Virus record (IMG/VR): IMGVR_UViG_3300046792_000309 | Span: 1 to 20,825 of that record | From: a virus | Direction: 5' to 3' (one strand) | DNA length: 20,825 nt | Shown here: piece by piece, positions 18,560-19,059 of the stretch | How positions within the stretch are numbered: position 1 is the first letter of the stretch | How the letters are laid out: each line of letters starts with the position of its first letter | Translations under genes and position numbers: made by a program | Notes under the pieces: generated by a model | Seen by the model: the letters and a program-made list of their open reading frames with translations, nothing else | What the model was told of the DNA's origin: nothing | Databases searched by the model: none

Positions 18560-19059
18560 CCCGCCCCGGTCTGTGAGGGGGTCGGTGCGCTAGGTACTCC
18601 GGGGGTTTCAGGAGGGCAGGCGCCGCGCTGTCCGACTTTCACGGCCCTCCGCGTCGCGTGCTGGTGGATCTTCCCTTTCGGTCAGTGCCGGACCTTCACC
18701 GGTCACGTGGGCGCTTACGCGCCGCTCTCTGCCACATATCAGGTACCGGACTCTCACCGGCCTCGGTGCTTGCTTGCTTCGTCCCTGCCCTCTTGGAACC
18801 CCCGGGGTTCCCGTGCTGTGCTCTGCCGGTCTCTGAAGGACTCGCTCCCTCCCACCTCCTGTGCGTTGCGTGTCAGCGATTGGCGGCCCCGCGTCGGGCG
18901 CCATGCCCGGCCTGTCGTCCGCATCCCTGACCTCGCCTGCGCACCCTTGTTGGGGGGTTGCCGGCCCCACGACGCTGCGTGGGTCTTCTCCCGATAGCCC
19001 TCCTGCTGCCCTTTCGGGTCCCGGTTCCTGGCTAGTGGCCTGTGCTGTTCTCTTTTTCT
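18560..19059 (-). ncRNA. Proposed large structured RNA or long structured leader
   Basis: About 500 bases follow a good minus-strand promoter and contain no gene with phage-like codon use; the open frames are Arg/Gly/Gln-rich shadows on both strands. Structure is dense. CCC-GAAA-GGG (19018-19009) and GGCGC-GTAA-GCGCC (18723-18710) are GNRA tetraloop hairpins, and GGAACC-CCGGG-GGTTCC (18811-18795) is another stem. Hairpins with loops UGAGAGU (18760-18746), UGAAGGU (18702-18688) and UGAAAGU (18644-18632) recur every 57-58 bases. Size and phage setting recall GOLLD and ROOL RNAs, but I cannot align it to either. It may be released from, or be the leader of, the message for the four genes downstream. 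Ends are approximate. Confidence 0.45.

Follow-up and report, generated by a model that had tools for sequence, protein, structure and literature searches.

Phage HK022 put RNA brings about processive antitermination by RNA alone. A long untranslated leader is a region that unmodified RNA polymerase is prone to abandon (Rho). To our knowledge, no RNA-based control of early operons has been established for actinophages. The nut region of phage lambda, in which a boxA is followed by a boxB hairpin, is found in phage leader regions (PMC6614801). In the present study, an entire IMG/VR record of 20,825 nt (20.8 kb), hereafter the window, was analyzed. The source of the window was a tailed phage whose major capsid protein shares ~30% identity with those of mycobacteriophages such as Optimus and Minerva. 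The contig ends on the right with a G run (20782-20800) followed by GC-only sequence, which is probably an assembly or sequencing artefact.

In the preliminary description, a gene-free, hairpin-dense stretch of the window was put forward as a large phage RNA, either a divergent member of the GOLLD/ROOL type or a new class. Similar to GOLLD and ROOL, this RNA is phage-borne, structured, and located near tRNA-like sequence. Unlike them, it is a 5' untranslated region that ends at a start codon and has a middle of variable length. The large conserved architecture of GOLLD and ROOL was not found, as the conserved parts are only a 58-nt 5' block and a ~40-nt start-codon block, separated by a varying middle, with 201-525 nt between the 5' block and the ATG. 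Moreover, cmscan against Rfam over window positions 17860-19540, at gathering thresholds and at E<5, gave no match, so the RNA does not belong to a known class. Of the original proposal, the phage RNA is upheld as structured, non-coding, preceded by a genuine promoter, and conserved at the RNA level in its relatives, whereas a large ornate RNA of the GOLLD/ROOL type was not supported.

The FMN riboswitch was also compared. The GG-UGARAGU-CC hairpins in the middle of the window's RNA resemble its peripheral hairpins, and tandem T-loop hairpins in bacterial genomes were mostly FMN riboswitches. However, the overall architecture differs, the related phages L133, L134, and L139 are without these hairpins, and the FMN riboswitch covariance model had no match in the window at E<5.

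5' leader of a leftward phage operon

The promoter TTGCCG-N17-TATACT, of the sigma-70 type with a TG before the -10, was confirmed and lies on the minus strand (19094-19066). The predicted transcript starts at ~19059 and runs leftward as far as the start codon at 18512. Behind the promoter, the gene-free stretch is real and measures ~547 nt (about 19059-18513), extending slightly past 18560, where it had been taken to end, to 18513. The open frames within it are explained by GC-richness, and the distances from the 5' block to the ATG in the four phages carrying it (525, 374, 201, and 257 nt) differ by non-multiples of 3. As the frame is not constant, this argues against a coding explanation, in agreement with the earlier judgement that no credible coding frame is present.

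The first gene of the operon (18243-18512, minus strand, ATG at 18512) encodes an 89-aa product, for which Pfam and PHROGs searches gave no match; a relative in L002 is 76% identical. According to the ORF map and sequence, a second gene-free stretch of ~320 nt (17872-18192, minus strand) follows on the same transcript up to the next ATG, and in it GTGATCG...CGATCAC closes a ~73-nt unit. As read from the sequence, these ~547 nt form the untranslated 5' leader of a phage operon transcribed leftward, a better description than that of a free-standing ~500-nt RNA. Upstream of the promoter, a repeat search identified two direct repeats and an inverted copy that are probably regulator sites. The copy GTGTTTGTGCAGGTCAGAG (19119-19137, plus strand) lies just upstream of the promoter, GTGTTTGCGCAGGTCAGAG (19160-19178, plus strand) is 41 bp from the next copy, and GTTTCCGCAGGTCAGAGCGT (19377-19396) is inverted relative to the other two, on the minus strand.

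The structural features listed previously were recovered in the leader. GNRA loops are present in CCC-GAAA-GGG (19012-19015) and GCGC-GUAA-GCGC, the long stem is a 28-nt inverted repeat, and the internally repeated hairpins are three hairpins with TGARRGT loops. The total folding energy of the minus strand was not unusual (z -1.0), and that of the plus strand was lower (z -4.0). Thus, energy alone is no proof of a structured RNA, and conservation is.

Conserved blocks and variable middle of the leader

The 58-nt 5' block (18986-19043, minus strand) combines a TAGCC/GGCTA helix around a CC/GG step with a CCC-GNRA-GGG hairpin, the tetraloop of which (19012-19015, minus strand) is GAAA in the window and GAGA and GCAA in its relatives in the alignment of four sequences. 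The relatives are three IMG/VR phages: L133 and L134 were found through the string AGGGCAGCAGGAG, common to the window and L035, and L139 was found through a neighbouring pattern; L035 carries only part of the block. Model R2 scored 90.1 bits in the window, 92.5 in L133, 90.0 in L139, and 88.6 in L134, the same four sequences from which it was built, and the next best match over 341 kb was 13.9 bits. The mean column identity of the block across the four phages was 96%. In the 49-nt core, CCACTAGCCAGGAACCGGGACCCGNRAGGGCAGCAGGAGGGCTATCGGGA, there are only two variable sites, both in the tetraloop, and GNRA is always kept. A common fold, TAGCC/GGCTA enclosing CCC-GNRA-GGG, was predicted in all four phages; the helix has no covariation support among them, its sequence never varying. 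In each of the four, the block lies 27-40 nt after a -10-like hexamer.

When the window was compared with the fetched flanks of L133, L134, and L139, the 5' block aligned over 60-81 nt at 89-98% identity and a block at the start codon over 34-45 nt at 88-95%. Beyond these two blocks, no convincing DNA similarity was detected in the flanks, and among nine window proteins tested against them the sole match was DUF2637 (36% in L139). The start-codon block, GTCCG-AGGGAGA-CGGAC-ATG, is conserved in 4/4 phages, and its hairpin (18513-18529, minus strand), which adjoins the ATG, exposes the Shine-Dalgarno sequence in the loop. Directly before it stands another hairpin, GCCAGCC-ACCAG-GGCTGGC (18532-18550, minus strand), whose stem sequence differs in the three relatives.

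A search of 394 Actinomycetes genomes with R2 gave four weak matches that were judged on reading to be due to chance, and no real match to R2 or the 53-nt block was obtained in phage and plasmid records. On the sequences compared, the 58-nt block is near-invariant among otherwise unrelated soil viruses. That ~50 nt are retained letter for letter in otherwise unrelated phages suggests that the block has a strong partner, probably one conserved among the hosts, and the block is short enough for direct testing.

The middle of the leader differs between the relatives, from 150 to 450 nt, with ~150 nt in L134. In the window, an inverted-repeat search with shuffles delimited a 28-nt long-range helix on the minus strand (5' arm, 18784-18811; 3' arm, 18593-18620) with 24 Watson-Crick matches, compared with at most 20 in 300 shuffles, which is indicative. 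A loop-pattern search with shuffles located three T-loop-type hairpins, CCGG-UGAGAGU-CCGG (18746-18760), CCGG-UGAAGGU-CCGG (18688-18702), and GCCG-UGAAAGU-CGGA (18631-18645), all on the minus strand within 130 nt; hairpins with such 7-nt loops were found nowhere else in the 20.8 kb. Among 20,000 dinucleotide-shuffled versions of the region, none had two or more of them, a result that is only indicative because the pattern was chosen post hoc. Both the T-loop hairpins and the long helix are absent from L133, L134, and L139. RNAalifold gave seven double-change pairs for the middles of L139 and L133, but the 3' end was misaligned, and hence this result was not relied on.

The T-loop part is known only in the window and, in a diverged form, in L035, which is probably an actinophage. 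The L035 leader is a gene-free region of ~600 nt that follows an operator-like palindrome and a promoter-like sequence, and it contains two modules, each with a long helix around T-loop hairpins like those of the window. The local similarity of the two leaders scored 37 (shuffle mean 24, sd 2.9, maximum 36 in 300 shuffles), in a test that is partly circular because L035 was found via the hairpins themselves. The ORF-start sequence AACATCGAAGGAAAGAACGCTCCAACCCACCAATGAAGGAGATCGA is duplicated after each module (4184-4253 and 4480-4579, plus strand), and the L035 leader appears as if it had grown by tandem duplication.

In IMG/VR, a single T-loop hairpin pattern gave 16 matches, about the number expected by chance, and was set aside. 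When two tandem hairpins were sought, L035 was the sole true relative and the other matches were coding repeats, while 394 Streptomycetaceae genomes gave chance matches only. Protein-based searches for relatives of 19532-20050 and of the small gene of L035 found none beyond L035. Other RNA-like features were observed in additional loci. In the phage contigs L020, L023, and L029, a candidate 23S rRNA-like stretch (GACCGCGTAACTTCGGGATAA...), judged by eye, lies beside a match to the hairpin CCGGTGAAAGTCCGGCAC. In L031 (~7593, minus strand), the hairpin GCCGGTGAAAGTCCGGCAC directly follows a TTGACT...TAGAAT promoter and precedes tRNA-like sequence.

Candidate functions of the leader

Antitermination of the rrn/nut type is the mechanism that we prefer, tentatively and at somewhat less than an even chance, because a boxA and a small hairpin in a phage leader constitute the lambda nut layout. 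The boxA-like element AAAGAGAACAGCACAG (19040-19055, minus strand) matches the boxA TTTGAGAACTCAACAG from the rrn leader of a Nocardioides genome at 10 of 16 positions, with modest significance. A GANAAC(T)-type boxA-like sequence was found upstream of the block in five leaders (the four and L035), at 10-12 of 16 positions; in single-sequence shuffles, the 16-mer gave modest p values of 0.001-0.05 per leader, the weakest being those of the window and L133. A small hairpin with a predicted GNRA-type fold adjoins this motif in 4/4 phages.

In the proposed sequence of events, the 5' end of the RNA would leave RNA polymerase, and its boxA-like sequence would bind host NusB-NusE, as in rRNA operons. 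The invariant GNRA-hairpin block may recruit NusA or a phage factor, or may contact RNA polymerase directly. Modified in this way, the polymerase could traverse the long leader, which is untranslated and strongly folded, together with the downstream operon. Further along the transcript, the boundary after the first cistron would be marked by a mini-tRNA-like element (18236-18193), which would probably serve RNase P, and possibly RNase Z, as a processing site.

Antitermination is favored by the promoter-proximal position of the block in 4/4 phages, by its conservation where no other DNA except the Shine-Dalgarno block is shared, by the retention of GNRA in both core substitutions, by the boxA-like motif in all four phages and L035, and by the 201-525 nt of untranslated leader behind the block. 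The regulator-site repeats beside the promoter fit a tightly controlled operon. However, the boxA match is modest, the GNRA hairpin has a loop of 4 nt and not the 5 nt of lambda boxB, proteins of the N or Q type were not found, and near-perfect conservation of ~50 nt exceeds the needs of known nut sites.

Conservation of both leader ends, the second of which coincides exactly in 4/4 phages with the Shine-Dalgarno sequence and start codon, would also suit translation control that responds to a ligand, as in riboswitches, or to a protein. The 58-nt block would then be the sensor or protein-binding domain and the start-codon hairpin the output on the first gene, and the FMN-riboswitch-like T-loop hairpins in the window's middle agree with such a design. 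This explanation is considered possible but rather doubtful, as 150-450 nt of unconserved sequence separate sensor from output, the Shine-Dalgarno sequence lies in a loop instead of being hidden within a stem, matches to known aptamers were not obtained, and the first genes differ among the phages.

Another possibility, which returns to the original large-RNA proposal and is regarded as unlikely, is that processing at the mini-tRNA and at other elements releases from the leader a free structured RNA that acts in trans. Such an RNA would agree with the conserved structure, its GNRA and T-loop motifs and its closing helix of 28 nt, and with the two long-helix modules with similar T-loop hairpins in the ~600-nt leader of L035. 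Against it, the leader's middle is unconserved and measures only ~150 nt in L134, the conserved 3' block goes together with the start codon that follows it, and no terminator stands at the leader's end.

The extreme conservation of the 58-nt block across unrelated phages also fits a site on DNA bound by a host protein, such as a replication origin, a recombination site, or a regulator site. Nevertheless, a DNA element is quite improbable: the orientation of the block and its place downstream of the promoter are fixed, substitutions are confined to the GNRA loop, a second conserved block exists at the Shine-Dalgarno sequence and ATG, and no match was found in phage and plasmid collections or in the 394 Actinomycetes genomes. 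That the GC-rich stretch is a decayed coding region folding through its composition, as the ordinary minus-strand folding energy would allow, is very improbable, being refuted for both blocks by the 88-92 bits of the 58-nt block in three independent phages and by the start-codon block, and contradicted by the hairpin trio (0/20,000 shuffles), although chance could still account for parts of the middle.

Mini-tRNA-like elements and comparison with described systems

The T-arm-like element noticed earlier on the same strand proved to be real; it belongs to a widespread class of mini-tRNAs and is not a broken tRNA. This complete mini-tRNA-like element of 44 nt (18236-18193, minus strand), TGCCGG-ACTGGCAGGCA-CCGGGG-TTCGAGC-CCCCGG-CCGGCA-CA, begins 6 nt past the stop codon and scored 60.2 bits (E 6e-12) with model R1, for which the next best match in the window was 12 bits. 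It comprises an acceptor stem, an 11-nt linker with GG, and a T arm, and the D and anticodon arms are absent. In the alignment, 44 copies are placed nearly gap-free, and in the stems of these copies, which were selected for pairing, 98.3% of cells are paired and 113 are double-change cells, compared with 30 in shuffles. A pair that was not selected, between linker position 15 and T-loop position 30, covaries (A-U 26, G-C 13, C-G 1), the linker GG is invariant, and the T-loop is TTCRA; the invariant GG and this covariation would follow from retention of the D-loop/T-loop elbow of tRNA. By this model, the acceptor stem would be stacked on the T stem with elbow contacts. Sixteen copies outside the training set were 99.4% paired in a model-guided alignment.

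BLAST placed mini-tRNAs between genes of Camvirus and Konstantine-like mycobacteriophages. A 44-nt consensus query matched 174 phage records, the places listed being almost unannotated, and the carriers include many phages of Streptomyces, Mycobacterium, and Gordonia. Besides the window, mini-tRNA loci are L003, L004, L005, L006, L010, L012, L015, L136, and L137. Copy numbers range from 7 to 15 per genome, with 11 in phiScoe55, 9 in Kaine, 9 in Endor1, 7 in Konstantine, 11 in Send513, 7 in Aleemily, and the maximum of 15 in one IMG/VR phage. Among the gaps of three early operons of the Camvirus type, a mini-tRNA is present in 23 of the 24 that measure at least 70 nt and in none of the 27 shorter ones. 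These mini-tRNAs invariably lie on the coding strand, mostly 5-15 nt past the stop and 29-50 nt ahead of the following start. Similarly, 9/10 longer gaps and 0/8 shorter gaps are occupied in Send513; in Konstantine the rule is weaker (2/4 gaps). An attP identity was dropped for the T-arm element because each genome has many copies, placed at the ends of cistrons.

An intergenic match of 40 bits was observed in the haloarchaeal tailed virus HRTV-19 of Halorubrum (L135, 793-835, plus strand), and weak similarity to the consensus was seen in ~25 records of haloarchaeal viruses. No copy was called by Rfam, where the best sub-threshold match was mascRNA (20 bits). ARAGORN reported no tRNA or tmRNA in the window and no gene in L002-L006, L010, and L015; two tRNAs were reported in L012, one of which (8288-8373) lies over a mini-tRNA position. 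None was found at 1e-4 in 41 Streptomyces genomes, in a search that was strictly filtered and had no positive control. Mini-tRNAs are not described in two Streptomyces phage papers covering Camvirus or in the literature searched, which did not extend to subscription papers. L133, L134, and L139 contain no mini-tRNA; thus, the 58-nt block and the mini-tRNA are separate elements.

Two further RNA-like features were seen in L002 (plus strand). Just upstream of the relative of the 89-aa gene, a larger tRNA-like structure (60-162) has an acceptor GGGACAG/CTGTCC, a T arm CAGGGTTCGACTCCCTG, and an insert of ~70 nt replacing the D and anticodon arms. At 1264-1400, an apparently structured intergenic RNA of ~130 nt has a long closing helix, GGCGATGCAC.../...GTGCATCGCC.

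From their placement, mini-tRNAs are probable RNA punctuation of phage operons, and processing by RNase P is a natural guess. It is conceivable, although we hold it with some doubt, that one transcript carries two new kinds of phage RNA. The first would be a near-invariant 58-nt leader block that acts on RNA polymerase in actinophage operons, the first nut/put-like element there. The second would be an anticodon-arm-less mini-tRNA, mostly 5-15 nt past the stop in almost every longer early-operon gap of Camvirus, several mycobacteriophage, Gordonia, and possibly haloarchaeal virus groups, that cuts polycistronic mRNA into single-gene messages via host RNase P, which would amount to tRNA punctuation outside organelles. 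In extent, the mini-tRNA class exceeds the 58-nt block. If RNase P cuts at these elements, they would form a simple system for separating the genes of a polycistronic message, and the setting of early dose per gene would be directly testable in phages of Streptomyces coelicolor and Mycobacterium smegmatis.

With lambda nut and rrn leaders, the window's leader shares a promoter-proximal RNA in which a boxA-like motif is followed by a small GNRA-type hairpin, with a long untranslated or structured region downstream. It differs from lambda nut in a block of ~50 nt that is almost invariant, a loop of 4 nt instead of the 5 nt of boxB, a partial boxA match, and no identified N-like protein. HK022 put RNA is likewise a structured leader RNA right after an early promoter with no known protein partner, but there is no sequence or Rfam match between the two, the host phylum differs, and the function proposed here for the leader is putative. 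The mini-tRNA resembles mitochondrial tRNA punctuation and mascRNA-type RNAs in placing an acceptor and a T arm at cistron ends. It differs from them in that its processing is putative, in its 44-nt length without an anticodon arm, and in the large number of covarying copies that a phage genome may contain, and its carriers are bacterial viruses and perhaps one group of archaeal viruses.
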